Shown: piece after piece, positions 4,450 through 51,000 of the stretch
Numbering within the stretch: the stretch's first letter is position 1
How the letters are laid out: each line of letters begins with the position of its first letter
From: Buxus sempervirens
Taxonomy: Eukaryota > Streptophyta > Magnoliopsida > Buxales > Buxaceae
NCBI GenBank assembly: GCA_947561395.2
Contig: OX387184.1
Span: 14,364,205 to 14,428,204, forward strand
Direction of reading: 5' to 3'
DNA: 64,000 nt
Program-made: the position numbers and the translations under genes
The notes under the pieces: model-generated
Told to the model about the DNA's origin: nothing
Databases searched by the model: none
What the model saw: only the letters and a program-made list of their open reading frames with translations

Positions 4450-5778
4450 TAGTTAGGGGTTGTTAGACCCTGTGGATTGAAATACCCTAAACCCATGACA
4501 TACACACGGTTAAAGTACTCCAGGTTTTACACGATTTAGTTACTGTGAATTAATAATGTTTTGTGTTAATCAGTTGCCTTAATACTGTCCATTGCTTCAC
4601 TAGTATAACTTATTGCGCATTGCAGAGATTGGGGCGCCGTTACAACTTGCTAGCCTATCCCAAGGTGATTCTTTTATAATTTATAGTAATCCACCTCCTT
4701 CGGATTCCATCGCTGAAACCCTTCACGCATGGTAAACTAAAACCTTCTTTAGATTTTCGTACTTTAATGACTAAGATTCAAATGGTCAGATGTCGTCACG
4801 TCTTTAGGTATGTGAACGTAGTTGCAGATTATAAGGCTAAATATTTTAATTAACAATCAGTTTTCCCGTATTTAACTGGTTTGAGAATCCTCCTTTCCTC
4901 TCGAATGTACAAGATTATAGTCGTCTGGGTTGTGCTGGGGTTATTTACCCTTGAAGCTGTGCTCACTTCATTTGCTTGGGAAGTTCAGAATGATGATGAT
5001 GACACAATTCGTTCTTCAAGGCTGAAGCCTGCTAGATTCCATTACTTTAAACAAATTTAATATTTAAATGCTAATTTGCAATTCGGAGCCATCGTTGGAA
5101 TGATTAGTTGCAACCTGTATATGTTCTGAATCCCTCTTTTTGGGGAAATTGATGATTCCTGACACATGCAACGATTGATTAAGGGGAACTGCATTTACGT
5201 AGCCTCCATGGAAATACATAACCATCTAGTGTAAAAGTTCTGTTTACAGAGAATAAAAACAGCTACAAGAACAAGGACAGCAATCACAAGACTAAACATC
5301 AAACGAAAAAAAATAACATAAAATGAACCTTAATTGTGGTTAATCAACTGTAGTCCTCCATGTTGATCAAATGCTTGGGAAAGATCGGGTCGCCCTGAAG
5401 TTCAACATTTTAATTAGATCCAAAATTAGTTCTCACAGTCATAAATATTTGTACAGCATGCTTTATCCACAGAGATTCACCATTAATTCAAGCACAAAGC
5501 TCTAGTTAATCATCACCTTAGGACACCCTTCTTAAAGGAGACTGAGTGTTTATATTATTTTTATGTTGGACTCAAATTTTTGTTTAGAACCAGGACAACC
5601 ACATCATCAGCTGGATGTGTCTTGTGGTCCTTTTTTTCTTTAGAAAAAAAAAACAAAAGAACAGAGACAAAGAAGAGATTTTACTGAACTACAGCTGCAG
5701 CAGAGAATTTGAACTATATATTTTTTCTTTTTCTTTTTTTAAAATGGCTACATACCGTGGAGGGGTTGCTTCTTGCCT
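4450..5778. other. Intergenic region, includes 3' flank of the mini-exon gene
   Basis: AT-rich sequence with no supported coding frame. The right end (about 5300-5778) would be the 3' UTR and downstream flank of the minus-strand gene that stops at 5779. Confidence 0.5.
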
Positions 5779-8700
5779 TCATTCCCACATTCTGTTGTGC
5801 TCTTCCAAAGTGGTAGCCTGCCATTGCTCGCTGGCATTATATACCATAAATATCTCAGATTGAAGAAGAAGAATAACTTCAGTGAGAAAATATCTTAGCC
5901 GGTCCATAGACACTCGGCTGCTATCTACCTGAGATTGAACGTAGGTTTGTGCAGCATTGGGTACTGAACGCAACTGATGATTGTTTCCCCATTGATTTGA
6001 AGAAGGAGAGCACTTCATTGTCAAGATCTCAGCTGGACCGCTCGTGAAGTAACTAAAGCCATTAGGAGTACTGGGAATGTTCCGATACACAGGTTTCTGT
6101 ATTGCAGCATAAGGAGAGGGATTGTGTGATCTTAAATTTTGCGAGTGCGCGCTTGGCTGTTGCGATACTCCTGCAGTGAAGGCAATTGGCTGCTGTGGTA
6201 CTGTTGGAGTGAGGGAAATCGGCTGCTGCGGTATTGGAGGGACAGCAATCGGAATTTGGTAACTTTTGCTGTTAGCAAAGGCATTTCTGCTAGAGGTATT
6301 GGGAGCATCTTGATTCCTCGGTATCTCTAGTATGAAACTTGAGAATTTTGTTCTGTTCAAGATTACAGTGGCTTCAACTCATACAGACACTTGATTTGTT
6401 ATTAGAAATACATATGAATCTCTATCTGAATTACAAATAACACGTCATAACCACTACTGTTACTATGCATTCAAGCCAGGGTTAAATTTATTTTGTAAGA
6501 ACAAAAGGATGTAAGGACTAAAAGATCATGATAGGAAACGAACCGATGAGGACAGGGACGTAGTGTGGACCAATTCACTTTGTCAATATCAATTTTATAA
6601 GAAGGCAGATCTTGATTAGGTTGCTCCATCCTTGGCTGCTCATGATAAACATTTCAAGCTAGTTAATAGTTGATACAAAAAGAACTAGAAGCACTTCATA
6701 ATTCAGTATCTTCTTATGCTTCTCTCTGTGGGTAAGTTTACACCTGAACGTTGTATTGCTGATACGAGGAATGTGGGTTATTAGAATGTTCAAGTTCCTA
6801 TTTAACACAAATGCATGTAAAATCAGGCTATGATTGTCAATAAAATAACTAAGAGAGATCAAGTACTATACGAAAATATTTCTTTTCCTCTCTCGACCCT
6901 TTACCTGAAGACTGGATTGCCGGTGCGAGAGAGAGGGGGTATAACGGGGTATCACTTCCTGGAGCTGAAACAATGAAAATTAAAAGGCTAAAATTAATTA
7001 TATTGTGATGAAAAAGGAAATGAGAAATTCCAGTAACAATGAATGTTTTTAAAATTTCAAAGGGACTTTGAAGCAGTTAAAGAAAGTGTCCCTTCAAACG
7101 ATCAGCCATTCCGTTCTTTTCATTAGCTCATAATGTTTTCTCTTCTTCTTTTTCAATTACCTCAGCATTCGACTGCCGGAACGATAGAGATGGCTCCTGA
7201 CGTGGTAACCCATACTGGTAATTAGGAGAAAGAAACAACGACAAGAGAAAGGTGGTTAATGTGATTGAGATAAAGCAAGCGTTACAAAAGAAAGAATCAT
7301 TTAAGTTCAATAAATAAGTCCATATTTTCTCTTTTTCATTTTTTTTTTCAATTTTCTCCTCTTGTTCTTACCTGTGCATTAAATGGCTGGTGGGACGATG
7401 AGGCAGCATTGCGAGGTGCAATATTCTATCAAATGAACAAATCAATAAAGGTGAGATGGTCCATCTAATAGAGTACTCAAGCAATATTTGAAGATGATGA
7501 CATGCAATATACTAAAAGAAAGTTCATATCCTTGTTTCATTCCCTTTTTCTTCAATTACCTGAACGCTGGACTCTAAGGAGGAAGAAGGCAGACCGTGAG
7601 CATGAGGTGCTACTTCCTGCTACATAAACAAATTTACAACCAAAAAGATGATACATTAGTCGATTTCTAAATAGATAAACTCGACATGAATTTTATATCT
7701 CATATTCCTTTTTCTCCTTTTTGCCTTTACCTTGGGTTGCCAGTACGCATAGGAATTGTTACCCTGCGTCATATTCTGGGTAAAGATAAATAAATTATTC
7801 ATTAAGCAGAGTGTTAGTTAAGCGTATTACATTACAAATTTAATCAAGAAATTCTTTTGTTTAGAATCTCTCTTTTTTTTTCCTTTCCTCTTCTTACTCC
7901 TTTTTCTTTTTACAGTTTCACCTGAGCATTTGGATGCCGATATACAGGAGAGGGGACAGCACGCGGTGTAAATTCCTGATAAATAAACAAACCCATTAAG
8001 AGTACGTAAGATGCTAATTGAAATATTGCTAAATCATTAAAAAGAGAATGAAAGAAATTAAGGAAAAAAGAAAGAATGTCGTTGTATTAAAGAAGCACAT
8101 TGTGACAAGGTAAAAGAAGAGCAACTCGATGCACGCAATAGCCATTGAACGATTTTTAGAAAATAGAATACAAACATTTGGAGAAGATATTGAAGCCTTC
8201 ACTCGTTGATCTTGCCTTTTTTCTTCTTTTTTTTTTCTTATTCTTGGGAATTTTAAAAATTCTTACAAGGTTTTCCTTTTCACCTGAAAGTTGGATTGCC
8301 CGTATGCGAAAGGGGGACTTTCACGACCTGAAACATCCTGATGCACGAAAAGATCCTGTAATTAATGTGCAAATGACCATTGCAGAGGCACCAGAAAAAT
8401 CAGTATAGAAGTTGCATCATTTTGTTGGACAAGTGCATCTTAATTAGTAATGTGTAAGTGTATGACTGTATCATGTGTTTGTGCAAATGCTGATACTCGG
8501 ATTGCAACGGCAATAGATTTATTGTTAATTTTCAGGTATTGCACCTCTTTCAGTGCCCTAAGAGCACTCGAAAAGAAGGTAAACGAGCTGCAGGCTCGTA
8601 CTTCATTCAAGATGTTTTAAGTTATGGGACTCACCATTCTTCCCTCCATATGGAACGTGGTATTTTTCTTTGTTGAGAGAACTTTCTTCCTATAGAACCC

Positions 8701-10430
8701 CAAAGTACAACACAATTATTGAGCTTTTTCCGCAAATCCACTCTTCTTTTTTGCCCTAATCTTTTAGCCTCGAAATATTGAATATCTGGAAAAAAAAAAT
8801 AAGAGATAGAAATTACATGAGGAACATATATAGAAGAATATCAACAAAAAAAAAAATTTGTGTACATAAAATTCGGGAAAAAAAAAAAGTCCATCTTTCT
8901 TTATAATGGGAAAAATATAGAAAATACAAATTTGGCAATTTTTATATGAATGATACATGCATACATAAATGCGCTTCAATTTGTGAATATTAAGCATACA
9001 GTTAAAAGCAAAAAATAAACCAGATTTTCGGCTTAACAACCCATTTTTGACAAGAATCGGGGACACCATCTAGTGGGTGGGTCCCCATTGCATCAAATAT
9101 ATAAGAATATCAACATTGATCAAACAATTTTGGCCATTTGATTTTTCTATTCAGTTTTTGTAAGTTAATTTCCTGCAGCACCAGCCAGATGGTGCCATAG
9201 ACGCGCACGAAACCAATCACTTATAATTACTATTAAACCAAAACCAGCTTCAACCCTCACCGGAAGAATAGGTTATAAGTTTAGTGCATGCCCCTGGCGA
9301 TGACTGGTGCCGCAAGAGGCAGTTTGTGCAATTATCGAAGACGATTCTCTCCGTCTCGGGCGAAGTTCCGGCTCATGAGCGTCCCTCTCAAAACCGTTGA
9401 GCTCAGACAGCGGTCCTACAAATTCATGAGAATATTTGACTGACAGATTGACGTCGTATGACTTTGTTCCCGTCAGTAGGTCACTGCACGGAGACGATAA
9501 GACAGGTATGGCCGGAGGATAGCAAGACCAGACCAGAAACGAAGCAAAACAAACGCGGGTTCGTCGCATGTACCCTTACACATTTCCATTAAAGGAGGAC
9601 TGGGCACTCGACTCATGTCAGGTGCCATCTACATCACATGTCCTTTTCTGGTTCGTGTCAGTACATGCGAAATTCCCCCTCCAAGCATACAAGAAAATTT
9701 TCCCAGGCGAGATGCTGAATGGGTGCTTCTTCCGTTTAAGTTTCTTAAACAGACAAAGCCAAATTAATATGGTCTCAGATAAGAACAGATAACAGGAGGA
9801 CCAACAATTACCTGTAGATTCCGCAACGCCTGTTCAAACATTACAAAGAAGGAAGAAGTGAAGTAAAGCTAGTTCCAATATCCCACAAATCAAAGCGAAG
9901 AAAAACTAAATCAAATCACTACCAACAACTAAAACAGACCTCCAAAATAAAAAATAAATAAAAATACAGGTGATCATCTCATGCATACTAAATCTTTTTT
10001 CTTTTTCATTTAATCGTCAAGAAACCAAGAATAATTTCAAACCCGGAAAACTAAAAAATAATTTAAGTCTGGGAAAAGATCAGAAAGAAAGGGGGAATGA
10101 CAATAGTTGAGTAGAAGGGAAACGGGTTTCTTTTCCCCTCTTCAATTGCCTATTTTATCTGCCAGCAGGCAGATCCTGAAAGGGACAGATCAAAGCGATA
10201 TCCACATCATGCACAAGAGGACTAATATATTGTTTTTTCATAGTAACTTTCAAGGGCCACTCATCTTTCTTATTGAGATGCAAGCAGAAGTGGTGGTAGT
10301 AAAGAAAAAATTCAACAGGAATTGGAAAAGGAGAGACTAGAGGGAAGTACCTGAGCTCTGGAAAAGGGAGACTTATCCAACCTGGAAATTCAGAAGAGAA
10401 GAAGAAACAAAACCAGTTGTGTTCTGGGCC
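5779..10430 (-). CDS. Unrecognised Pro/Ser/Gln-rich protein gene built from a tandem array of mini-exons
   Basis: I do not recognise this family. The terminal exon, 6324 down to 5779, encodes 181 residues. These include three ~11-residue PQQPI-type repeats and a more ordered C-terminus rich in Leu/Glu (near LRYFLTEVILLLQSEIF). Upstream on the same strand lie seven small exons, all phase 0: 8337-8284, 7975-7922, 7775-7731, 7616-7560, 7425-7372, 7214-7161 and 6958-6905. Each is 45-57 nt, mostly exactly 54, bounded by CAG/ and /GT consensus. Peptides such as EFTPRAVPSPVYRHPNAQ and EVIPRYTPSLSHRQSSLQ are clearly related. A further 18-nt exon (9829-9812) and a non-coding first exon ending at 10351 are plausible. 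No ATG is found in the exons seen upstream of 7775, so the start exon is missing from this model; it should lie between 9811 and 8338. Function unknown. Confidence 0.55.
6905..8337 (-). repeat. Array of seven duplicated exon-intron modules
   Basis: The seven mini-exons are spaced about 170-360 bp apart, and the flanking intron sequence is also similar. Before the acceptors one finds TTTGTTTATTTATCAG, TTTGTTTATGTAGCAG and TTTGTTCATTTGATAG. Just after two of the donors (7560 and 7161) the sense strand continues GTAATTGAA. Shared intron flanks mean whole modules were duplicated, not just coding repeats. A decayed module may exist at about 10137-10185. Confidence 0.65.
9273..9569 (-). CDS. Candidate missing start exon of the mini-exon gene (weak)
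   Basis: A 98-codon open frame beginning with ATG in a stretch of higher GC than its surroundings. It lies between the 18-nt exon (9829-9812) and the first mini-exon (8337), exactly where a start codon is needed. I see no family motif and no decisive splice site, so it may be chance. Confidence 0.2.
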   Translation of the reverse strand: MRRTRVCFASFLVWSCYPPAIPVLSSPCSDLLTGTKSYDVNLSVKYSHEFVGPLSELNGFERDAHEPELRPRRRESSSIIAQTASCGTSHRQGHALNL

Positions 10431-10450
10431 AGAATGGTGAAGAGGAGAAG

Positions 10451-10462
10451 GCTATTTATAGG
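10451..10462 (-). promoter_or_regulatory. TATA box of the mini-exon gene
   Basis: On the minus strand this reads CCTATAAATAGC. It would start transcription near 10425-10430, about 75 nt upstream of a good donor (GAGCTCAG/GTACTT at 10351), giving a short non-coding first exon. Confidence 0.5.
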
Positions 10463-12104
10463 CCAAGAGGGTAGCACAGGAGTTAATGAGGGTACCTTGC
10501 CACAAGAATAATGAGGTAAGAAAGTATGACATGGCACCATTGCCTTGTTAAGGAATCTTGTTCAATTTTTACTTCTTACTACTTTTAGTGCAAGACCCGG
10601 GCATCAATTGAACTATAATTACATAAAAAAATTTGTTAAAAAACCCTAAGTACATTTAGTTGACGACAAAGCTCTAAATTATTTCTTTTGTAGCTCTCAT
10701 TTTGCAACTATTCCCCTATATATTACTTAAAAGGATGCTCTTCAGCCTCTTATTCTCATTGCATCAATGGTGATCCATTGTGATTTTTCACCACCAATTC
10801 ATAATTTCAAAATTGATTAATATATCATTGAGTTTTATCTATTATCTCGTCATATGGGCACGTGGAGAAGACCGTTGGGATAGAAAATGATTGGTAATTA
10901 TGTGCGCGCGAGTATTGAGCATCGACAGATATTCCGTTACAATGATACAATGTATAAAGTCGAATTTTGTCGCGTAGCCATTTTTGGATATTCTTTTACT
11001 AAATCGAATCTCGTATATGATTTTTAGAATGCATTAGGCAATTTCTTAATTTGAAAACCAATATTCAATTGAATTACTTTTATATAGCAACCAATTTGAT
11101 TCTTTTAGCTAATGTAGATGTTAACCTTCTTAATATCTAATTGTGAACTTGATAATTTATAATACTCCCCACAAAAGTTTTTAAAAAAAATTTGTATTAG
11201 TACATAGCTTTTTAAAGCTCATTTTTGTTATATTTTGTAGTAATGAAATGTAAACATAAGGTGAAATACTAAGTTGCTCCTATATACATTTGACAAATTT
11301 ATCTTAAATCCTAACATAATCATTAATCACTGTCATTTTCCTTTTTTATCATCTCTTTATAGAGAGGCTGCAAAGCCAAGAAGATAGCTATAACAAAAGA
11401 TTTGGTTCTATTTTCCAATTAGGAGGGGAAAAGGGTGAAGACTGGTTAAAGTTTTTTTTTTTGGTAATGAAAGACTAGTTAAAGTTAGTTTGGAGTCTAC
11501 ATACTTAATCAATTTATTGTAACTAAACAATAATTAGTATTATTCTAAATATAAATGGAGATTATGTGAGATGAGTAAGGAGCCTCATATGCTTCCGTTC
11601 AAAAGCATGATGTTGATATGGCGTCTGATGATACACGGTGTATGAATTTGTCGGAAGCCGACTGACAGCAACGTTTGCAGGTTGTTCGCGATGCGTGGAA
11701 TCCATGCACATTTGCGGTTACGCCTCGAAGAGAGAGGGAGTGTGTCTATACGCGTGTGAATGCACGGATAAGGTTGACGCGTTTGACTCGGAAGAATATC
11801 TGCACAGCAAGATTTTGTTCCCTTCACTTTAGGGTTGGTAAGATGCGGAGAGAGATGCCTGAAAATGAGAAAGATGTTGACGAAGAAGCTTCTTTGAGTA
11901 CGTGTCCATGGACTCCCTTCAGCTCTTCAGCTCTCCCTTCTGATAAGAGTTACAGCAGAAACTGAAACCACAGCAAGGCCCCTCTCTAACTTTCTTCTCC
12001 TCTTTTACGTTAAATTCTTAAAGTCGCGAAGGCCACTATTTGAGATAACAGTAAAAAACGCTCACCCTCTCTCTCTCCTGCCCTCCTCTTTTCCAATCTC
12101 ATTG

Positions 12105-17538: not shown

Positions 17539-18115
17539 TTTTTTTTTTTGCTAAACAAAAGCCAATATATTAATGAACCTTCCGAAGGTAAGTGATCCCC
17601 CTCGCTTCATCAAACAGCATTGATGAAAGAAAGAGGGGGATGGACAGCCAAATACAAGAAAAACGATCCTGAGCATGATTAGCCAATAAGTCAGCAGCTT
17701 GGTTGGCCTCACGAACCACATGGGAAAAAGAAATAGAGGAGAAGCTATTACATAACCCTTTAATCTGAACCAAGGTACTCCTAATCCGCCATGGGAGAAC
17801 TGCCGAGGCCGAAGTGAGCAAATCAATGATGAGTTTTGAATCTCCTTCAACAATCAGATGGGACACACCAGTAGAGATGGCCAACTGAACAGTCTCCAAA
17901 GCGGCTGAGGCTTCCGCTTGGGCACTAGAAGATGCTTCGGACAAGGAGGCTACAGCTGCTATAAAATTCCCAGAACTATCCCTAAGAACACCTCCAATCG
18001 ATGCTTGACGAGTGGAGCTCCGAAAAGACCCATCGAAATTCGCCTTGACCCATGAAGAAGGTGGTCTTTCCCAGCGAATAACAAAGCCTGTATGCACCCC
18101 AGGAGACATACTCTT
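17539..18115 (-). mobile_element. 5'-truncated LINE, RNase H end only
   Basis: On the minus strand an open frame (18109 to 17570, up to 179 residues) encodes the plant L1-type RNase H domain. Visible motifs include VKANFDGSF (catalytic Asp), AEASAALETV (Glu), VEGDSKLII (Asp) and VREANQAADLLANHA. The frame is followed by a 3' tail and an 11-nt poly-A (poly-T at 17539-17549 on the plus strand). Endonuclease and reverse transcriptase are missing, the usual 5' truncation of LINEs. No target duplication was found with confidence. It is diverged from the full LINE at 49227. Confidence 0.8.
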
Positions 18116-18119
18116 GGCT

Positions 18120-19155
18120 CCTTATCACATCAACCATCTAGCCTAATAATAAAAGCGAAAGTGCAAGATTCTAACCAGAACTCAATCTGAATCCTAAAAC
18201 ACACATTTAAGATTTGAATTTGGAAAAAACCATGTAATCGTACTCCAGGAGCTACCTGTGAATAGATTGTCCAAGTCTATTGAGTGTTTATTAAGGATAG
18301 CAATGGAAAGGGTTAATTGGGAAAGCCCCCTCCCCTGTGCCATGCCTGGCTGTTTATCCAGAAGCCAAATTGAAAACTACTCAGTTTCAACATCACTGGT
18401 ACGAGAACAGATGGACTAATCGGTAACTTAACTCCTCATCGTCTCCCCTGTTTTTAAAATATGCTTTTAATCTTTGGATCGTTCATCATAACCAGCTTTG
18501 ATGCTCTAATACAGCTACCCTTATTGCTCAAAAATTTTCTTTTGGTAATAGTAATCTACTGCCTTTTGAGAATCCGAATCAAACTCAGAATATTCCTTCC
18601 TGCCTGGGGCCACCACGTCGAAGCAGAAGATTTTAACCGTGGTGTACTCTGCTCTGAAGCGACCCAGTGCGTAATTTCATTCGTCATGGGAGATTATGCT
18701 GATATTACGAGATTACATGGAAGATCAGGAGACTACCAAAAAAAAATACATGGAAGATCAGGTACAGGTAATGATCAAACAAGCCAAATCCATCTCAGAC
18801 CTAAAGCAGGAACCGTATATGACACCATGAATCACAGCACAAAGGACAACAAATTAAAGAAAGTCCAGACTCCAGAGTCCAGAGAGATCTTTCATTTAAA
18901 CTGTTGTCTCTTTGGAACAAGATAGCGCAGAAACTGGAAGTAACAAAAACAAAAATAAAAAAAAGTAGTGCTCACCCAACAAAGAAAAGGATTGAACCCA
19001 TGAATCTTATCAACACCTTTCATTCAGAATCAAGTTGGGAAGAACCGGGGGGGTGGGGGATGATAAGGATTGGGATTTTACAGTGGTCGGTGAGGAAATT
19101 TATGAGATTATGGATAGCAACGGAAAAAAAACACACACAAAACTGCCTTCTTGAT
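18120..19155. other. Intergenic, 3' flank of the HIPP gene
   Basis: A 154-codon open frame on the plus strand (18461-18925) has no recognisable motif and is not called. The right part, about 18960-19155, should be the HIPP 3' UTR. Confidence 0.4.
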
Positions 19156-21933: not shown

Positions 21934-22557
21934 TAGAGCAATAATCGGGGGGTCGGTTCGAGTTAAATTTGTTTATTGGTGGGTTGGGAAAACCCAAAAC
22001 CAAACCCAACTCACCAATAATCAAGTTCAACCCACCAACCCGATTAATACTTTTTATTTTTTAATTATAAACAAATACATCAATAAAAAATAACGTGAAT
22101 TAGTGATACAATTTAGGGTTAAACGAGTCGTTATCAGGCTAAACGGGTCATTATCGAGTTAAACGGACCATTATCAAGTTAAATGGGTCATTTTCGGGTT
22201 AACGGATCATTATGGGGTTAAGTGGGTCATTATCGGGTTAAACGAGTTATTATAAGGTTAAACAAGCCATTATTGTGTTAAACAAGTCATTATTGGGATT
22301 AAACGGGTCATTTATCGTATTAAATAGGTCATTATTGGGGTTAAACAGATCATTATCGAGTTAAGCAGGTCATTATCGGGTTAAATGGATCATTATCGAG
22401 TTAAACGGATCATTATTAAGTTAGATTCAAGTTGATCCGAATACGAATGAGTTACTGAGTCCCTAACCCGAATTCGACCCAACTATTACACGAGTCAACC
22501 CGAACCCGTTTATTCTTGTTGGATTCGAACAGGTTGGGTTGATTTTTTCCATGTCTA
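21934..22557. mobile_element. Degraded hAT-like element of the GGGTTGGG family
   Basis: The left end reads TAGAGCAATAATCGG and the right end, read inward, TAGACATGGAAAAAATC. Subterminal GGGTTGGGTT repeats are like those in the elements at 61 and 60236. No 8-bp duplication was found, so it is older or an end is misplaced. Confidence 0.5.
22119..22420 (+). repeat. 20-bp minisatellite, about 15 units
   Basis: Degenerate tandem copies of TTAAACGGGTCATTATCGGG fill the middle of the hAT-like element. Units vary at two to five positions, and some carry one extra base. Confidence 0.9.
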
Positions 22558-24741: not shown

Positions 24742-25777
24742 TTTTTTTTTTTGTAAACCAACATGACACTATATTGAAATAAAACGAACAAACGGAACCT
24801 CTCTACCATCATTGGAGAGCAGGTTCCAAATACAACAAGGAGGAGAGTGAACCCAAAGGCAAGGGAACCTGTCAAGAGCAAAATTTGCCAAGCAATCCGC
24901 TGCCTGGTTACCCTCCCGGAAGACATGACAAAAATCAATACTTAGAAAATTACATATTAAGGATCTGATAATAGAAAGAGCAGCAGAAATCTTCCATGGA
25001 CCAAGGGATGAAGAGTCTATGATCAGATTAATGACAACCTTAGAATCACCTTCGAAAATGACGAATTTTAAGTCTAGAGCAACAGCTAACCTGATGGCTT
25101 CTAAAGCGGCAAAAGCTTCCGCTTGAATGCTAGATGTGGCCTCCACAAATGATGCAAATGCAGCAATGAATCTTCCTTGACTATCTCTTGCAATCCCACC
25201 GATGGAAGCTGTATTTGAAAACCGTCTATAGGCACCGTCAAAATTGATCTTTACGTATGGGTGAGGAGGTCTTCTCCATGACACTTGCACTACTTGTTTC
25301 TGTCTACTGCTCCCCTCTTGGAAATTCTGCAATGACCGAGTATCATTGTGGAGCTTTGCAATGTATTGGCACACTCGTAGAAGAGAAGGCAGGTTGCCTT
25401 CAAATAACACCCCGTTCCTTTCCTTCCAGATTGCCCAAATGAAGTTAGCAATCTGTGACAGGAAAAAGCATCTGTTAAAACTTGATGAGTTGTTTTTTGA
25501 AGCCGGAAGATGAGCAATCCAAGAGAACCACTGTGGGAATGAGGAAGAAGGGCCAAGTGACTGAGTGGCACCTCCAATTGCCTTTAGCCATACCGCCCGA
25601 GAAAAAGGGCACTTCAAGATCAGATGCTCAAGGCTTTCCTCAGCCTCTTGGCACAACGGGCAGCTAGGTTCATATCCCCCAATCCTGGAGTTCAGCAAAT
25701 CACAAGTAGGGACAGCGTGAGACAAGCATTTCCATAGAAATAGCTTGATCCTTTTGGGACAATCGAGGTTACTTGTG
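24742..25777 (-). mobile_element. 5'-truncated LINE with 16-bp target duplication
   Basis: The insert is flanked by a perfect 16-bp direct repeat, ATTTCGTATAAATTTC, at 24726-24741 and 25778-25793. Its minus-strand 3' end is a poly-A (poly-T at 24742-24752). The minus-strand frame, open from about 25760 to 24769, encodes the zinc-binding reverse-transcriptase tail (CPLCQEAEESLEHLILKCPF) and the RNase H domain (VKINFDGAY, AEAFAALEAI, FEGDSKVVI). It begins inside ORF2 at the CPKRIKLFLWKCL segment. It is of the same family as the LINE at 49227. The undamaged frame and perfect duplication suggest a young insertion. Confidence 0.92.
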
Positions 25778-25793
25778 ATTTCGTATAAATTTC

Positions 25794-27028
25794 GAAGTTA
25801 CTTTTCAAAGCAAAAAAGTTAAAGAAATTTTATTTTGAAAGGTCAAAAAGTAACTTTGAAAAATTATACCAAATAACCTTTAAGTTAATCGGTCTAGTCC
25901 TTAATCAATGAGAACTAGCCACTTGGAAAATGATCTATGGCATTTACTAAGTCATATAAGGGTCACTTTTCATACATATCAACTCATACCCGAAAAGGCC
26001 GAAATTGAGTTTAGATGTGCATACTCTCATACATATATTTAAGTGAGTATCTATTATGTATATACTCTATTGTTTTCTTTTCTTTTACATTATCTTTATA
26101 ATTATAAAATCAACTATAAAACATAAAATTAGTAAAATGTGATAACAGATTTATGAATTTATTCACAAATAAATAATTTTATACAAACAAAACACATATA
26201 CGCTACAATAATTTATATTTGGGTGAATCTTTGACAAAAAAGATTGTGCGACTACAAATACAACGAGCATTTAATTGTCTTGTTATGTTAAAAATAATTT
26301 TTTAAGAGATAAATTAATTAAGATTTTTTCCAAATTCAATAGACCAATTAAGAGGTCATTATACATTAATAGATGCTTTCAATTAATGATATTCAAAACA
26401 TTTGCATTCATGTAAAAAAACAAAATAAATATTAAAATTTTATATTTTGTTTGGGCCAACCCGAACTCAAATGATAATGTTTGGGTTGGGTTTGGTTTTA
26501 ATGAATTTTGGTTAGGGCGGACTAATGACGAGTTTGGGCTAGTGAATTTTAGACTGGGTTGAGCCCGAACTTACATAACCCAATCTACTTACAACTCTAA
26601 TTGGTATCCAAAGAGAGAGAGATATGTTTCAACCCCATTTGACAACTAAGGATAAAGATTTGTCACACGAACGCACCTTAATTAGATATTAGATATTAGC
26701 TCTCAATCATCCAAGTTATATATAAAGCCCAAATATCGTCAAATTATATAGAGTTCCACCTTAGATCTCCCAATACGACAAGGCCAGCACTTGAACAAAC
26801 CCCGAGAACAGAGAGCGAAAATGAGATAATTTTCCGAATACCCGTAGCTTAAACAAGTGAAAAACCAAATTCCAATAGTTTCATAAGAGAATAAACATAG
26901 AATTGTGTGAGGCATTGATTTTTTGCAGAGTGATTTACATTTAGAAGCTTACAACATTCATGAAAGAGCAACGATGAGAAAAAGAGATTACTTTTGTAGC
27001 TATCCAAAATACAACCTAGGTTTTCTCC
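25794..27028. other. Intergenic, AT-rich
   Basis: No gene. 25795-25870 forms a short hairpin around GAAGTTAC...GTAACTTT. 26450-26600 contains GGGTTGGGTT-type sequence like the hAT elements but without definable ends. Confidence 0.45.
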
Positions 27029-32638: not shown

Positions 32639-35218
32639 CTATTTGTGTGAAGATAAATATCTTCTAGGTCAAGGTACTGAATTCTTTATGAGTTGATTTA
32701 GACCCCAGTTGGGTGTTAAAACTAATGGCATTCAGATGAGCCTTAATGTCAGAACAGGTCATTAAAAGGTCAAGTTGTTTTTGATTGATTAGCAACTAAA
32801 GCTATTTTTGTCATCGAAACGTTCATCCATAAAATTGACAACTTCTTGTCTTTTTATTTTTTGGTTTTATTTTTTTATTTATTTTTTTATTTTTTCATCT
32901 CAAAAGCATCCTTATAATTTCCTCAAAAAGATTGTGAATTATGTGCAACTTGACTCTGAACTATGTGAAGGGAAATAATTGTTCGCATGGAACTGACCCG
33001 GAGTATGGCCTGAACTCTCTTGTCCCACTCCAACGAGTAAAAGTTAAAGCAATTGAATAAATTGAAATCATTTTATTGATGGTTTCTCATAGAGAAGCAA
33101 TGATTTTCATGCACATAACCAGCCAGGGGCAATGATATATGAAGTATTTGGACACATCATCACCATCTTCTTCTATGCCTGATTGCTTCCCTGCCGTCCT
33201 GATTAATCTGGGTTGGTTGCAAAAGTTCTTTTTCACCAATTTTTTTTTTTTGGCCATACTTTGTTAGCTTGCGGGTGATCCTTGGACAAACATGAAATCT
33301 GAGAACGATATTCAAGGATGGATTTTAACCAAAGTTGCTTGCTGGTTGCCAAACTGACACAATCCTTGTTTTCTGTCTGGGCCTTGAGACAGTAGTTGAG
33401 AAGCCAAGAGCTTGACATTATCGGATCGAGATGTCAACCTAACACAATCCTTCCATCTGGGCATTAGACCAGATTTGTGCATCATACTTCATGTTTTAGT
33501 AAGAAACATGATAAAAACCTGGACAGGGATCCTTTTTTTTTTTTGGAAGGTACCTGGGCAGGAATCCTTTTTCACAAATCTATGATTCTTACATTCGTGG
33601 GTGTTGTTTGTTTCAAGGTTTGCATCTGTCACAGATCATCAGATTATGCTACCCTTCATATAGAAAAACTTATATTTCTACAGCACTATTTTGTTATTTT
33701 GCTGCTAGGTATTTGGTGCCAGGCCTGTGCAATCATACAGAATTCTTAGTATTGAAAATTTTTTAGTTAGCATCTGAGATATATTAGGAATTGGTGGACA
33801 ATAGTCAGAAATAGCTGAAGCTTGTTTTTTCAGTTGCTTGCCTATTCTGAGATCCTTGGAGTTTTTTACGTTCTTGTTTTCTATGGGTTTTGTATTGTTT
33901 TTACTTTTGCTTTTCTGTACTTAAGAGTGATCCTATGACTTGTGGGGTTTTTTCTCCCTTTGATATTAATGAAGCTTCATTACTTATCCAAAAAAAAAAC
34001 ATTTTTAGTTAGGACATTGCAATAATTTAATGAAGCATAAGAAACATATATGTTGGTAAGTAATAGTTATTGTTATTAAAACCGACTTACCTTGTTCATG
34101 GCAAGTAGAGTCTGAGACCAATGTGTACGTAAATGAATGAAGGGAACAAAAAATCTATGTGATTACTCCAAGCTGTGGTTTTATTAGGCAGCTTATGCAA
34201 TACCAGTTCTCTCGGTGGGGATCCCAGGCCGCTCTTATTGTAGATTTGATGTTGAAACTTGAATCTGCCTTAGCATAAACACCCTGAAAATAAAGGTACC
34301 ATAGAAAATTCAAATGGGATAATGATCTTGCTATAAGACCACTTAACCCGAATTGTTACTTGAATATAGGCGTTTGGTTATTTTTATTATAAAAATTACA
34401 TTTTGTTCATTATCAAACAAATGCTTTTGCATTACCGTCTTATGTTATTTAGGTAATTTTAATAACCATGTATGTGCTTTATTGTTCAGGTAGCAGAGGC
34501 ACAGACAGCGGAAGCCAGTAACATGCAGAAGCAGCTCAATGGAGAAGATTATGACGCAGTTAGTAATCCATCACCAGTGAATGCAGAAGCGGAGGAAATA
34601 TCCAAAAGAACAGCTGCAGCACTTGCAGACAAGCTGGCTGCTTCTAGCTCATCTCAACTGATCATGACCTCTGTGCTATCCACATTTGCAGCAGAGGCAG
34701 CAAAAAATGCTGGCATGACAACGTCATCCGCGTCATCCAGTTCATTCTCTTCCACCCCAACCAATTCGGCAGGTGATTTAAGGCCAAAGCTAGAGAAGCC
34801 AATGCCAGTATCAGATCCTAACTTCTTCGTTGCATCACAGCCTCATGCTGGTACAACCCATCCTTATCAAACAATCTTGGTGCCCCAACCTAGCATACAG
34901 GGGCAAGCCCTGATGTCCCAATCCCAATATCATTCACTTCCAAACCCACAATCGCAGCAATACCTGCAGCCATCTGGAGGGATTGTAGGAATGTCATATG
35001 GTTATAATGTCAATGGTTATGGTGCCAATGGTTATGGTGGTGTTCCACCATTGCCTCCAGGTCCGCCACCACCCCCAGCACACATGGTATCTCCAGTGAC
35101 GCCAACACCTCAGCAGCAGTCAATGCTGTTAAGTCAGCATCCCCCAGCACCACCTAGTTTCCGGCCACTTCAACCTCCTGGAATGGTGTACTATGCACAC
35201 CATAATCATTCTCAGTAA
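28844..35218 (+). CDS. RPRD1/Rtt103-like CTD-interacting (CID) protein
   Basis: Seven coding exons, 28844-28919, 30437-30684, 31156-31311, 31497-31659, 32051-32193, 32293-32328 and 34490-35218, give 516 residues with consistent phases and GT-AG borders. The N-terminus (about 1-135) is the CID/RPR fold, formerly annotated as ENTH/VHS. It has LSKLNSTQQCIE, LSHWCIFHRSKAELVVATW, FLYLANDILQNSKRKGNEFV and IWEERRVFGSR. A charged, coiled-coil-like segment follows (VEEETVLKQCIEKLKSLEEN, then ALHEQESELENVRTQLQVAE). The tail is Ser-rich, then Pro/Gln/Gly-rich, and ends in YYAHHNHSQ. Yeast Rtt103 and human RPRD1 bind the Ser2-phosphorylated C-terminal tail of RNA polymerase II and act in termination and CTD dephosphorylation; a nuclear role here is inferred. 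Intron 1 (1.5 kb) and intron 6 (2.2 kb) are large; the latter carries a LINE fragment and a CA repeat. The gene lies tail to tail with the dehydrogenase at 37033. Confidence 0.92.
32608..32634. repeat. (CA)n microsatellite in intron 6
   Basis: About 13 CA units, preceded by a short TA run, within the intron between exons 6 and 7 of the CTD-binding protein gene. Confidence 0.9.
33771..34000 (+). mobile_element. Short 3' LINE fragment in intron 6
   Basis: About 230 bp of T-rich sequence ends TTGATATTAATGAAGCTTCA, then TTACTTATCC and a 9-nt poly-A. It is flanked by TTTTTAGTTAG at 33760-33770 and 34002-34012. That is the shape of a severely 5'-truncated LINE insertion. Only non-coding 3' sequence is present. 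Confidence 0.6.
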
Positions 35219-35688
35219 CACCAAGTTTTATAACAGGGTAGTCCATCTTAGTCGATGTAATTGCCTTCTGCACAGAGAAATTTTCCCTATGATTATGAAA
35301 AGCTTAGAAGAAATAGCTTTTGTCAAAGAGAATTGAATCTTGATGTTTGTCAATGGTTATGGTGCCAATGGTTATGGTGGTGTTCCACCATTGCCTCCAG
35401 GTCTGCCACCACCTCCAGCACACATGGTATCTCCAGTGTCACCAACACCTCAGCAGCAGTCAATGCTGTTAAGTCAGCATCCCCCAGCACCACCTAGTTT
35501 CCGGCCACTTCAACCTCCTGGAATGGTGTACTATGCACACCATAATCATTCTCAGTAACACCAAGTTTTATAACAGAGTAGTCCATCTTGGTCAATGTAA
35601 TTGCCTTATGCACAGAGAATTTTCCCTATGATTATGAAAAGCTTAGAAGAAATAGCTTTTGTCAAAGAGAATTGAATCTTGATGTTTG
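35009..35688 (+). repeat. 340-bp tandem duplication of the end of exon 7 and 3' UTR
   Basis: 35009-35348 and 35349-35688 are near-identical copies, differing by only a few substitutions and one single-base indel. The repeat unit starts at TGTCAATGGTTATGG and contains the last ~70 codons, the stop codon and about 120 bp of 3' UTR. The junction shares TGTCAATGG/TGTCA microhomology. Translation stops at 35216-35218 in copy one, so copy two lies in the 3' UTR although its frame (to 35558) is still open. Confidence 0.92.
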
Positions 35689-43262: not shown

Positions 43263-44198
43263 CTAACTGTGTACGGGTCTAACTGTTGATAGCATGGTGT
43301 GGAGAATCTCAGAATTCAATCTCATCTCCCCACTGTTATTCATATTTCCAATTCCATGACATGATTCGGGCATCGAGGATGAACCCATACTCATCACTGA
43401 ACTTTCTTTCCTAAAAGCTTCTTCTTCATCTACGCTTCCTCTTATGCTACCCTTCTCATCAATTCCATCACCGTCTTCATCCCACCTCTCCTCACTACCA
43501 CTATCAATCTCTGTATTAGCATTCTCTTCCTTCTCTTCTACTTCATCTTGCTGCATAGTTTCACCTACTCCTTTATCTTCTTTCTCTGTCTCCAACCCCT
43601 TCTTCTCCTCGTTCGCATGATCCAACCCTCTACAGTTTAAAGAGTTACAGTCCATCTCTACAAGCTGTAACCTGAGACGACCATCGCCCCTATGGACCAG
43701 GAAGAACTCGTGACGCTTCACCATCTCCTCCTGAATGATCAGCCGTCCGTCGCTCTTATAAATTCTCTTCATCACCCACGGCATGCGACATGACAGATTC
43801 TCTGTTCTTGCCAATGAAGGCAACGGTGGTGGAAACTCTCTTTTCCCCATCGTCTTCTCCCACTTCCTGCCCCTCCACTGACCACGATCACGACAACGAT
43901 CACAATCCTTCACGTCCTCGGTCTTTGCTCTTTTTACGTCTTCGTCATCTCCCACATTAAGACCACACATTGCCCCATTAAGATCACAGATTTCCGAAGT
44001 CGACGAGGCTGTTGAAGAAGGCGACGAGGATGGTGAGAACAACATTTCTGAGCGGATAATGCCAAAACGAAGACAGTCGAGTCGCTCTGTATTGGAACAG
44101 GCTGTTAGGGACCTGAGACCAAGTTCGTGATTCTCTGCAGTCGGAGATTTTTTAGGGGTACGCGATGATCTTGATAATGATAACGACGACCACAACAT
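43263..44198 (-). CDS. FANTASTIC FOUR (FAF) family protein
   Basis: An intronless frame of 311 residues. The FAF domain is at about 122-181: FPPPLPSLARTENLSCRMPW, then VMKRIYKSDGRLIIQEE, ending HRGDGRLRLQL. It is preceded by a Ser-rich segment and followed by a long acidic Glu/Asp-rich region and a short tail ending STVRPVHS. In Arabidopsis, FAF proteins limit shoot meristem size by repressing WUSCHEL; related FAF-like proteins modulate ABA signalling. The frame stays open upstream to about 44390 without any ATG, so I start at the first in-frame ATG, 44198. A TATA box at 44255-44264 supports that start. A three-codon uORF (ATG-TAC-AGC-TAA at about 44230) may precede it. Confidence 0.88.
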   Translation of the reverse strand: MLWSSLSLSRSSRTPKKSPTAENHELGLRSLTACSNTERLDCLRFGIIRSEMLFSPSSSPSSTASSTSEICDLNGAMCGLNVGDDEDVKRAKTEDVKDCDRCRDRGQWRGRKWEKTMGKREFPPPLPSLARTENLSCRMPWVMKRIYKSDGRLIIQEEMVKRHEFFLVHRGDGRLRLQLVEMDCNSLNCRGLDHANEEKKGLETEKEDKGVGETMQQDEVEEKEENANTEIDSGSEERWDEDGDGIDEKGSIRGSVDEEEAFRKESSVMSMGSSSMPESCHGIGNMNNSGEMRLNSEILHTMLSTVRPVHS

Positions 44199-44254
44199 AT
44201 CTCCAGGTGGGGTTCTTTTAGCTGTACATGGAAGAAGATTCTCTGGCCATTTAT

Positions 44255-44264
44255 AGACAATGTG
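44255..44264 (-). promoter_or_regulatory. TATA box of the FAF gene
   Basis: CTATAAATGG on the minus strand predicts transcription from about 44228, just upstream of the chosen start codon at 44198. Confidence 0.5.
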
Positions 44265-44289
44265 TAACAACGCCCCCACAGAGAAACGA

Positions 44290-46674
44290 ACAGATGGTTC
44301 TCCGTTTTCGAGGGCGGCAGTAATGCACTCGAGGGGAGGAAATGTGATCTCTGAACTGCAGAGCCAGCTAAGAAGCCATTGTTATATTAATCAACCTGCA
44401 AGAAACGATTCGATCGAAAAGTGGATGTCAATCCATAATCAGTAGCCAGCTAGCTAGCTCACAATTAAATGCAGATCAAAACGTTCGACGCATTAATTGT
44501 CATCCTATGCATATAACCAAAAATGATCAGGCAATAACGGGAACCGTGTCATATTGACGATTCTTTATCTGGGTCTGTTGGCTGCCATTACTATTTTCAA
44601 TTCAAGAAAGATGGAAGCAGAAAAGAGAAATGGATTTGGCAATGTAGAACAGCTTCCCTTTATTAAATTTTTCACGCGTGAAAGTTTTTATAACCTCGCC
44701 CTAATCAGTCCTAGCTGCGGCAGGATATTGCCGTTAATGCCTCCGGTAGTTATGATTAGTAATAACCACCACCAAAGCATCGAAAGATCCTTGTATTGAA
44801 ATGAACCACTGATTTCGACTTCTTGCTGCTCAAATGACTGAAATAGCCTTAACGGGCTCTAGTCCTCGCGTCGATTTTTGGCCGTGAGTATCTTGCAGAG
44901 ATCTTGAGGATCCTTTGATGATATCGATGTAAAATATCAATGTCTCAAGAATAGCTTTTCCCAATTATATTTATTCAAAGATTAGAACAATCCTGGGTTC
45001 TTGAGGATGAAAAAACACAGGCGCTTGCAAACAGCTTCCTACCTACCTATATACCTTCCAAGAACAAAATATTTCCAACTATTTTTAAAAGTAACAGAAG
45101 AGAAAACAAGAGTCCACATAGTCATTTTATTAATTAAAAAGAATCACACAAAGTCATTCTAAAGAATCAAGTAGTCATTGATCTTGCTGTTTAGACTCCG
45201 GGCAAGAGAGAGATACAAGATAACGAGGGCTTTAATTCGTTTGCTTCGAACATTAAGATCGAACTCAAACAGGATGCAAGTTTCTTTGATGAAACAATCG
45301 AAACAAGAGAATAAAAACATATTTTTTCAGAAAACGAATGAATGAAAGAGCAACGGACCGAAGATTCGCACAAAAAAGAAAATCAAAGAAAAAAAACATT
45401 GCAAAAGAAGGGAAAAAGATCGCGAACTCCAGAAAATCTCCATTGCAAAAGCAAGAAAACAAAGGAAAACTTACCCCTGAAAGGCGGAACGAGGGATAAC
45501 TCTCTTCAACCATATTCATACCGGTTCGCCAGAACAGCAGCGATATGACAACTCAATGCAAGAAAGATAGACACTGGGCTCCCCCTTTATAATCGAAAAT
45601 TTCCTTTTTTTTCGCTCCATTTATGTTTTTTATCCTTTCAGATAAGTTTGTCATTTTATTTCTTTTAACATTGCTCTTTTTGCCTTATCCTAATAATCTC
45701 CCCTTTTCTCTCTAAACCGTTCCGAAAAATGAGATTTTAGGATAAACAGAGGACTGGTTAGTGCCACTAGCAATATTGCACGTGGGTAATGGAATTGTGT
45801 CATTCGCCGTTCAGGACGATGATATCATATTGGAAAAAGGTGGGCATGTCAAACGGACAGGTGGCCCACATACCTGCTTGGCTCTGAGATTTAGCACGAC
45901 ACAACCCAAAGCAAATGACTTAGAGGTCTAAAGATATTATAAATATCCTAAGTTTCTAATCTTTTTTGTAAAGGAAAATTATTGAAAGTATCCTTTTTTT
46001 CTAAGTATTTACAAAAACATGTTTTGAAAAAGTCAAATGTTAAAAAAACGTATAATTTTGTTTTCGTATAACTACGTTTCAATCTGAAATCACTGTAACA
46101 CTTTTCAAAATTCAAAAATTGTCATTCGATTAATCGCAAAACAACGATTTAAGATTTTGGTTAATCGAAATTTCAAATCATCGAAGGATACATGTTAGAT
46201 CTTCAAGAATATCAGACGAATCATCAACAGATACAAGTATGATCTTCATGAGATACATATAATATTAGGTTAACCATTATGGAAACAAGCATGATCATCA
46301 TGTTAGTTCATTGTGAATCTTCAATAATTGTTGCGATTTTTCGATTAATCGAAAATACCACTTGATTAATTGACAAATCTCACTGTTGATTGTTTGATTA
46401 GTGTAATTAAATATTGTGTCAATTAATCGAGCTACAGTAATTTCAGACTGAAATGCAATCACACGAGAAAAGTTGTATGTTTTTTAACATTTGACTTTTC
46501 TAAAAATGTTTCTGGAAATACATAGGAAAAGGCGGTCCTTTCCTTAATTTTCCCATCATTCCAATAGATAATAATATCACTTTATGTTTCTTGCATATAC
46601 ATATATTTACTGACAAAGCATGACACAACTTATATATACATATACATAAGCTAACAAAGCATGACACAACTTAT
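44290..46674. other. FAF upstream region and intergenic
   Basis: No gene is certain. On the minus strand, TTATAAAGGGG (45582-45592) is followed by an ATG at 45519 and, 45 nt later, a strong donor GGG/GTAAGT. This could be a first exon, but I could not find a matching second exon or join it in frame to FAF. Confidence 0.35.
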
Positions 46675-47963: not shown

Positions 47964-48435
47964 GGGAAAATTATGGGAAAGGCCTCCTTTTTGGGAGGTC
48001 TTTCCCAAAAGGCCTGTACATCAAACTCATGATGCTGCAGGCCTCCTTTTTCCTTAAATTTATCAAAAGGGCCTCACATGAGGGATGCAAGCATTTTCAT
48101 AGGAGGATACAAGTCCTGTCATAGGGGGATACAATTATTTTCATAGTAGGATACAATCACATTCATAGGGGGAAACAAGTATAGGGATACAAGAATTTTC
48201 ATAGGAGGATACACGTATAATCATAGAGGGATACAAGCATTTTCATAGGAGGATACAAGTCATTTTATACGGGGATACAAACATTTTCATAAGAAGATAC
48301 AAGTCCTGTCATAAAGGGCATGTAAAGCCCTTTTGATAAATTTAAGGGGAAAGGGGGCCTGCAGCATCGTAAGTTTGATGTACAGGCCTTTTGGGAAAGA
48401 CCTCCCAAAAAGGAGGCCTTTCCCATAATTTTCCC
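47964..48435. mobile_element. Mutator-like MITE with 9-bp target duplication
   Basis: Terminal inverted repeats exceed 100 bp and are nearly perfect, starting GGGAAAATTATGGGAAAGGC on both sides. The 9-bp duplication TATAGTCTT is at 47955-47963 and 48436-48444. These are Mutator-type features. There is no coding capacity; the middle is a minisatellite (separate entry). Confidence 0.9.
48074..48318 (+). repeat. 22-bp minisatellite inside the Mutator-like MITE
   Basis: About eleven degenerate copies of CATAGGAGGATACAAGTCTTTT-like units, alternating between AGGAGG and GGGGG forms, fill the space between the inverted repeats. Confidence 0.85.
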
Positions 48436-49200: not shown

Positions 49201-49518
49201 AAAAAAAAATCAGTACACTAAAAACAACTTCTTCTTTTTTTGGTGAGAGCTGTCTTGCTGAGAGCTGTTTTGCTCGAGTTTTAGGGTGGTTTCCTTTCTG
49301 GTTTCTAGCTATCGCCTGGTATTGTGTTATTTTCATCTGGCTCTGTGATTTTCATCCTCTTCTCCGGCTTGCGGATTATCCCCCGCTCTTCCCATCTTGT
49401 GCTGTCTCCCCTGCCTTCCTGTTGGTGTTCCTTACTTTCCAGTTCGTTGCCCCCTAGATGAACTCAGCGTAGTGCTCTTTGGGTTTTCTGCTGATCGTTC
49501 TTCTTCCCTCAAGGTCAG

Positions 49519-51000
49519 ATGGAGGATATTGAAAATAAACTTCAAAATCTTCTCATCCCTTCTCGTCCGACTAAAGCTTTCTCTTTGCTGGAAAATGAGA
49601 AGACCCGCCTTCGGGAAAAATGGCAGTTTCTGGCTATTGTCGATTGTGTTAAGGTGGTCCCTTCTTTCAATGCAATGAAAAATTTTGTCGAAAGGGCTTG
49701 GAAACCATTTCGAGTGATGTCGTTTTCCCCGGTGACTGTTTCGAGATTCCTGGTCATTTTTGGAACTCAGAAGGATCTTCATAATATGTTGGCAGCTCGA
49801 CCGTGGTTCATTAATGGGTCCTTATGCATCATTGAAGAAATTTCCAACCCAGAAATAGCTGATACGCTGATTTTATCTGAATTCATCATATGGTCCCAAC
49901 TTATTGATCTTCCGCGTGCGTTGCACGATTCTCAAATCATTTCTCGCCTTGGTAATGAATTTGGAAGGACTCTTCTTGTGGAGCTCCCTATGTTGCCTGA
50001 GAGTCCTTATGTTTGCATCAAGTGGTCGCTGCCTATTTCAGAAGCCATCCCTGCTGGCTCTTTCGTTGAAGATCTGCAGGGAGAAAAGATCTGGGTCATA
50101 TTTGCACACGAGGGTATACCGGAGTTTTGCTTTTTTTGTGGTCTGTTAGGGCATAACCTAAACAGCTGCTCCAAGTTGAATCCGGGTGACCAACTTAGTG
50201 TCCCTCCTAAGGACAATTCATCGTTGTACTCAGATCGTAATCGGGTGTCATCCCGCAGGCGACGGTATTTTCAGACTCCGGCAACGGAAATCGATGCGGG
50301 TCGAGGCGATGCGAATAGGGAGTTCTCGGGTCGTCCAGCGTCTTTGCAGGGTTTCTCGGGTATCCATTCTCATGGTCAATCGGGCTCCAACCTGGAATCT
50401 ATTTCAGAGAGGGCTTCAACATTTGATGGGCTTGTAGTGCCAAGTTTGGCCCAAGAGAAATCAGTTTCTGAGATGGCCTGGAATCAGCTATCACCCAATG
50501 AGAACCATGGTGGCCTAGCCCATATCCTAGATGGGTGTTTGGGCACTGCAAGTGGGGCCTCATCTTTTGAACCATCCTGGTCTTCTAAGCCTAGCCCCCT
50601 GCGCCAGGGCCTCTCCTCCCCTCCGTTATCCTCCTTTATTTTTACTTCAGCTTGCCACCCTGGCCCGTCAAAGGAGAAGAAAGTTGTGAATCTCCTATTA
50701 TCTGATTTTTTCCCTTCTGAATCTCAGGTTCCTTGGAGTCCGAGTAAGTTAAGTCTTTCAGTTTCACCACACCTTTCCTTATCAGAGATTCCAGAGGTAC
50801 CTAAGTCGAAGACTAGAAGAAAGCCTCACATGCTCAGGCGGCCAACCCAAGGAAAAAAAAATGAGAGCTTTGAGATGGAGACAGACCAGCAGTTACCCAA
50901 AGACAACCATTTAAACCAGAAGAAAAAACGAAAGCTCTCGCCTGAACTGAATCACCTTTGTTTCTCCCCTTCACCTGAGTTGGAGGGAGGCTCTGTTTAG
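49519..51000 (+). CDS. LINE ORF1: RNA-binding protein (DUF4283 plus zinc knuckle)
   Basis: 493 residues. The first ~200 resemble the DUF4283 domain of plant LINE ORF1 proteins (for example RFLVIFGTQKDLHNMLAARP followed by WFING). A zinc knuckle, CFFCGLLGHNLNSC (CX2CX4HX4C), lies near residue 205-220. The remainder is a low-complexity Ser/Pro- and Lys-rich tail (KTRRKPHML, KKKRKLSPEL) likely to bind nucleic acid. Such proteins coat LINE RNA. Its TAG stop touches the ATG of ORF2. Confidence 0.9.
   Translation: MEDIENKLQNLLIPSRPTKAFSLLENEKTRLREKWQFLAIVDCVKVVPSFNAMKNFVERAWKPFRVMSFSPVTVSRFLVIFGTQKDLHNMLAARPWFINGSLCIIEEISNPEIADTLILSEFIIWSQLIDLPRALHDSQIISRLGNEFGRTLLVELPMLPESPYVCIKWSLPISEAIPAGSFVEDLQGEKIWVIFAHEGIPEFCFFCGLLGHNLNSCSKLNPGDQLSVPPKDNSSLYSDRNRVSSRRRRYFQTPATEIDAGRGDANREFSGRPASLQGFSGIHSHGQSGSNLESISERASTFDGLVVPSLAQEKSVSEMAWNQLSPNENHGGLAHILDGCLGTASGASSFEPSWSSKPSPLRQGLSSPPLSSFIFTSACHPGPSKEKKVVNLLLSDFFPSESQVPWSPSKLSLSVSPHLSLSEIPEVPKSKTRRKPHMLRRPTQGKKNESFEMETDQQLPKDNHLNQKKKRKLSPELNHLCFSPSPELEGGSV

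Follow-up and report, generated by a model that had tools for sequence, protein, structure and literature searches.

The window analysed here was a stretch of 64,000 nt from Buxus sempervirens (assembly GCA_947561395.2, contig OX387184.1, positions 14,364,205 to 14,428,204 of the forward strand), and all coordinates below count from its first letter. On its minus strand, from 8337 to 6744, we found eight consecutive phase-0 mini-exons, each with an AG acceptor and a GT donor. These eight units are related to one another and lie in one continuous reading frame of 362 residues that begins at the most upstream AUG of the predicted message. The sequence makes it likely that this is a plant protein-coding gene in which one phase-0 exon of about 54 nt was long ago duplicated in tandem, giving rise to an N-terminal segment.

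Relatedness of the mini-exons and of their introns

The units, numbered m1 to m8 in the direction of the gene, were 54, 54, 45, 57, 54, 54, 60 (or 54) and 54 nt long; every length was divisible by three and all eight shared one frame. Splice borders, frame and comparison between units placed m1 (8284–8337, DVSGRESPPFAYGQSNFQ), m2 (7922–7975, EFTPRAVPSPVYRHPNAQ), m5 (7372–7425, NIAPRNAASSSHQPFNAQ), m6 (7161–7214, YGLPRQEPSLSFRQSNAE) and m8 (6744–6797, ELEHSNNPHSSYQQYNVQ), all of 54 nt, as well as m7 (6905–6964, 60 nt, (LQ)EVIPRYTPSLSHRQSSLQ) and m4 (7560–7616, 57 nt, EVAPHAHGLPSSSLESSVQ), the last with additional support from a profile scan. Splice borders and frame defined m3 (7731–7775, 45 nt, NMTQGNNSYAYWQPK), the poorest fit of all units. 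At m7 two acceptor AGs lay 6 nt apart, and the second gives a unit of 54 nt starting at 6958. The introns separating the units measured 107–308 nt. The original prediction, made from the letters of this stretch, had listed seven phase-0 mini-exons (five of 54 nt, one of 57 nt and one of 45 nt); the phase stood, but the count was eight. Its view that every unit is symmetric was confirmed, and its peptide pattern, xxxPRxxPSxxxRQxNxQ, was approximately recovered when the translations were aligned, with m3 aligning worst.

The sum-of-pairs score of the eight peptides was 451.5. Shuffling within each peptide gave 120.6 ± 25.6 (none of 2000 as high), shuffling of pooled residues gave 98.0 ± 27.4 (0/5000), and mini-exon-like fragments bounded by the same splice signals in simulated sequence gave −12.1 ± 33.3 (0/5000). 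Slices taken from the remainder of the same protein scored 31.3 ± 25.9, with a maximum of 106.5 in 2000 draws. At the nucleotide level, the identity of the six 54-nt units in register was 0.547, compared to 0.279 ± 0.015 after codon shuffling (maximum 0.349 in 5000), and when 6 nt were removed from each end it was 0.530 compared to 0.285 ± 0.017. When the same units were compared out of register, at eight other offsets, identity was only 0.236–0.281. An in-register identity so far above the codon shuffles points to descent from one exon. Judged by these comparisons the mini-exons are copies of one exon, with a weaker case for m3.

A rival account holds that chance AG and GT sites surround P/S/Q-rich, coding-like stretches. 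Single fragments of this kind are cheap, as the same 6 kb held 57 open fragments of 45–63 nt between an AG and a GT, and under a null that drew with replacement from 9–11 fragments of each length, 141 of 5000 sets scored at least as high as the observed one, or 203 of 5000 when the last residue was dropped. However, that null was faulty and was set aside because the same fragment was drawn several times over, whereas the sounder nulls gave 0/2000 once and 0/5000 twice and no codon shuffle approached the observed in-register identity. We regard the chance account as already refuted, with a negligible probability left to it.

In the profile scan, a profile of six modules was run against the 57 open fragments on the minus strand of 5000–11000. 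The best scorers were the modules: the six scored 19.2–29.2 in leave-one-out comparisons and m4, which was outside the profile, scored 12.3, compared to 5.7 for the best unrelated fragment. Unit m3, which at 45 nt had to be padded, was absent from the best 14 of the 57 fragments. No extra module was found by the module profile from exon 9, which follows m8, to the protein end (best window 5.7, shuffle mean 7.3). Pairwise alignment of the units with 60-nt flanks gave z above 3 in 19 of 28 pairs; m3 reached z 3.1–5.3 against m1, m2, m6 and m7 and did not exceed 3 against m4, m5 and m8. Tandem Repeats Finder does not list the array, which is what one would expect of units so divergent and interrupted by introns. 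Three short two-copy repeats, 71–79% alike, overlapped unit borders or intron starts. The core of the original prediction, that a symmetric exon of about 54 nt was serially duplicated, was well supported by the shuffle tests, the register test and the profile scan.

The copies have diverged far. The six 54-nt units were identical at 25–34 of 54 bases in pairwise comparisons and different at 20–29 (37–54%), and when 50-nt flanks were included, the longest word in common between any pair of the eight was 11 nt. Over the 15 pairs of 54-nt units, NG86 estimates of synonymous (dS) and nonsynonymous (dN) divergence were 0.86 and 0.65 when pooled, with a dN/dS of 0.75; values for single pairs are weak. 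With units so divergent and shared words so short, unequal recombination between them today is unlikely; the array is probably old, and a recent origin is unlikely. A repeat number that varies by present-day copy-number change, as had been proposed for this gene, is therefore disfavoured. A divergence of about 0.65–0.86 substitutions per site suggests an old array that would be expected in other plants too, and it is an argument, short of a decisive one, against the gene being restricted to a narrow lineage. Identity among the units was 0.53, 0.60 and 0.51 at the first, second and third codon positions, and the greater likeness at the second position, together with the pooled dN/dS, is a weak sign of constraint at the protein level.

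The introns following the units begin with purine-rich sequence. From +7 to +46 after the eight units the mean purine fraction was 0.74 (0.60–0.90), compared to 0.50 ± 0.12 for the strand; it was 0.15–0.65 in the ten introns of a neighbouring MADS-box gene, and the four introns of the mini-exon gene that come after other exons had 0.53, 0.23, 0.50 and 0.70. Local alignments of the donor-side sequence from +7 to +66 scored 300 as a set, compared to 250.1 ± 9.6 for dinucleotide shuffles (0/500 as high). For the ranges +7 to +36, +7 to +46 and +11 to +40, the observed score was reached by 1, 4 and 3 of 500 dinucleotide shuffles and by 0, 5 and 65 of 500 half-wise shuffles, respectively. The acceptor side as a set scored 231 compared to 232.1 ± 8.5 (277 of 500 shuffles as high); the one acceptor-spanning exception was a 34-nt stretch, 79% alike, shared by m2 and m4. 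The earlier claim that the flanking intron sequences are similar found partial backing on the donor side, where the likeness is partly one of composition, and none on the acceptor side as a set. In the reading that we prefer, one phase-0 exon of about 54 nt would have been copied in tandem long ago, perhaps along with the opening part of the next intron, and the purine-rich intron starts may have been inherited with the duplicated unit or retained as an aid to the splicing of short exons.

The array could also be read as a splicing switch in which skipping or combination of units yields isoforms that differ in repeat number, as has been proposed for schistosome micro-exon genes. Because every one of the eight units is symmetric, loss of one by skipping would preserve the frame, and both the paired acceptors of m7 and the unusual purine content of the intron starts would fit such a switch. 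However, the symmetry already follows from the duplication of one symmetric exon, and the 712-nt stretch from m4 to m7 was of ordinary fold stability (z 0.47; 13 of 20 shuffles folded equally well or better). In addition, the excerpts of PMC8831610 describe plant microexons (15 nt or less) in which intron retention is commoner than skipping, unlike in animals. We consider the switch unlikely. It seems improbable that the gene founds a new plant protein family of disordered elements of about 18 residues, the number of which would be tuned by regulated mini-exon skipping dependent on the purine-rich intron starts.

The predicted gene and its product

The region was read directly, and GT-AG exons were placed by eye and then checked by script. 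The predicted message, on the minus strand, consists of exons A, B and C, m1–m8 and exons 9–12, of which thirteen (C, m1–m8 and 9–12) are coding. Its open frame extends from the first AUG (message position 235, within exon C) to the TGA at 5346–5344 and is 362 residues long, whereas the longest open stretches in the other two frames of the message were 64 and 79. Exon C (8635–8785) comprises 5′ untranslated region, the first AUG (MEGRM...) and a second in-frame AUG at message position 247, which is the last codon before the donor (ATG/GTGAGT) and from which a 358-residue form starts. The array is read in the frame of the first AUG, so the statement in the original prediction that no start codon was to be found upstream no longer holds. 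Further upstream, exon A (10351–10430) is predicted to be non-coding, with a start inferred only from a TATA box, TATAAAT at 10460–10454, about 30 nt upstream of that assumed start. Exon B (9812–9829), predicted to be non-coding and only 18 nt long, is uncertain and was recognised by its AG/GT borders. Both exons were drawn from sequence context.

Downstream of the array, exon 9 (6544–6635, 92 nt) holds no module and has the donor GTTCGT. Exon 10 (5929–6352, 424 nt) encodes a P/Q/S/N-rich peptide and has a donor, CAG/GTAGAT, that lies within what had been taken for the last exon, ending at 5779. The frame is open there, but exon 10 probably ends at the donor at 5929 and is followed by exon 11 (5756–5830, 75 nt, placed by GT/AG context and frame) and the coding part of exon 12 (5344–5394); this ending is likewise open, and choosing it is a preference and not a proof. 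Exon 10 also holds a second, unrelated repeat at 6153–6252 on the minus strand, with about 2.5 copies of a 33-nt period that match at 79% and encode an 11-residue unit around PQQPI.

In the predicted protein P, Q, S, N and T make up 47% of residues, and its hydropathy of 0.405 falls narrowly on the disordered side of the boundary at 0.421. It thus looks disordered by composition and, narrowly, by charge-hydropathy. Searches of Pfam-A and PDB with the 358-residue form gave no match up to E 10, negatives that are limited by the HMMER filters, which discard most weak matches. The 199-residue open frame of the original prediction gave no result with Pfam. A 50-residue reading of exon C had a sole Pfam match at E 0.24 (11.6 bits compared to a cut-off of 26), in a frame that does not join the array, and was rejected. 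The 141-residue peptide of exon 10 had 44 pattern-matching stretches in bacterial and archaeal genomes and 10 in viral contigs, none confirmed by tblastn, and these plant-free collections are little informative for such a gene. Within the window, tblastn gave no convincing second copy of the gene; the best match outside it (E 0.44) fell in the MADS-box gene and was taken as chance.

Several observations weigh against a functional protein-coding gene built by exon duplication. Since the exon borders were picked by eye, guided by frame and GT/AG context, the open frame is partly a product of choice, and the donor of exon 9 departs from the consensus. The dN/dS between units is near neutral, dN exceeded dS in 7 of the 15 pairs, and dS was undefined for one pair. 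The charge-hydropathy outcome is marginal, and the searches of Pfam-A and PDB gave no homologue that would hint at a function. On the intron side, the donor-side signal owes part to composition, as seen with the half-wise shuffles of +11 to +40, a high purine fraction (0.70) also occurs in one intron of the gene beyond the array, and acceptor-side similarity was no better than shuffled.

The dN/dS near 0.75 and the lack of a match to a known family in Pfam-A or PDB would also fit a decaying gene or pseudogene, in which the exons were duplicated long ago and are now drifting. However, a stop-free frame of 362 residues over thirteen predicted coding exons, all with GT/AG borders, is unexpected in a gene long dead, even if the borders were chosen by eye, and we find decay very unlikely. 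The many short exons and the introns of 107–308 nt between units might instead belong to a non-coding host gene, with the exons merely spacing introns that carry small RNAs. Against this, Rfam gave nothing credible in 5000–11000, where the sole match up to E 1 was a bacterial small RNA with 17.7 bits compared to a gathering score of 167, and the strong similarity sits in the exons and in register. A host gene of this kind appears extremely unlikely.

If the duplicated array belongs to a protein-coding gene, the predicted message would be made and spliced as drawn, with all eight units normally included. The product would be intrinsically disordered, with eight P/S/Q/N-rich elements of about 15–20 residues forming a multivalent or spacer segment, and such a segment may tolerate the loss or gain of a unit. 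This functional step is drawn from composition, and we put it forward tentatively, as a possibility on the doubtful side.

Other genes and repeats in the window

The window's gene content looks like that of plant nuclear DNA, with open frames carrying FAF, HMA and short-chain dehydrogenase domains, long interspersed nuclear element (LINE)-like sequences and the MADS-box gene. The latter appeared intact at 15109–12916 on the minus strand, with 337 residues in eleven predicted exons (Pfam SRF-TF, E 7e-28), and its sequence looks like the MIKC* type (AGL66/AGL104-like). The mini-exon gene lies downstream of it on the same strand. The Fantastic Four meristem regulator domain, Pfam FAF (E 3.1e-18), was matched by an open frame at 43263–44381 on the minus strand. 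ARAGORN found no tRNA genes in the window.

A LINE-type retroelement occupied 49495–55161 on the plus strand as three long open frames that follow one another in a single reading frame, with a stop parting the second from the third. The first held DUF4283 and a zinc knuckle (Pfam), and the later two, judged by eye, resemble endonuclease and reverse transcriptase with RNase H. An RVT_3 fragment at 17570–18121 on the minus strand (E 2e-29) is probably another LINE remnant, and a seemingly similar RVT_3-like remnant was seen by eye at 24769–25797 on the minus strand. A P/Q-rich stretch occurred twice, 340 bases apart, at 34990–35534 on the plus strand, an apparent local duplication in another gene; weak tblastn matches at 35051–35194 and 35391–35534 closely resembled each other. 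Tandem arrays were found at 48081–48318, with a unit of about 22 nt (GGATACAAGCATTTTCATAGGA) and higher periods of 44 and 102 nt, and at 22116–22416, with about 15 copies of a 20-nt repeat (GGGTTAAACGGGTCATTATC).

Comparison with known systems

Adjacent exons in the array are related beyond chance and every unit has the same phase on both sides. As far as the DNA shows, the gene falls into the broad class of those enlarged through tandem exon duplication, which is a known type of event. Kondrashov and Koonin reportedly dealt with tandem exon duplication in general in 2001. The mutational kind is the same here, and this case is distinguished by eight far-diverged copies, all in phase 0, in a plant gene. 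Growth by serial copying of a small in-frame exon is best known in animal collagens. In the parts of PMC2852846 at hand, fibrillar collagen genes are described as carrying arrays of 54-bp exons with intact codons at both ends and 45-bp variants, and these arrays are attributed to repeated duplication of one 54-bp unit and unequal crossing-over. On that description, fibrillar collagen is the closest system in build, since arrays of 54- and 45-nt exons with intact codons are shared. In contrast, the translations here show no Gly-Xaa-Yaa, there are only eight units, and the gene is from a plant. The likeness to collagen is one of build and origin, not of kinship.

The closest system for a possible use of the array, from the excerpted text of PMC3961193, is the schistosome micro-exon genes, which likewise have tandem symmetric short exons, with lengths in multiples of three, that are thought to permit protein variation by splicing. 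However, the exons given there are of 6–36 bp, compared to 45–60 nt here, so the gene falls outside their size range. A member of the MEG-4 family is located in that text on the surface and gut lining of the worm. Tuned skipping of the units, were it to occur, would be the plant counterpart of this design. Plant microexons share with our units that they are short internal coding exons, a sort that automatic annotation tends to overlook. The clusters in PMC8831610 are exons of 1–15 nt and the passages at hand describe no serial array of copies, while the 51-nt microexon limit reportedly used in PMC12409088 and PMC6600660 would take in m3 alone. Among the literature matches listed, titles and abstract openings pointed to no plant gene of such build, for a gene that is nameless and hard to query. 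If transcribed as predicted, the gene would be a clear example from plants of a segment that grew through serial copying of one mini-exon, and it would serve as a natural test case for whether all copies are included in plants or the repeat number is varied by splicing.

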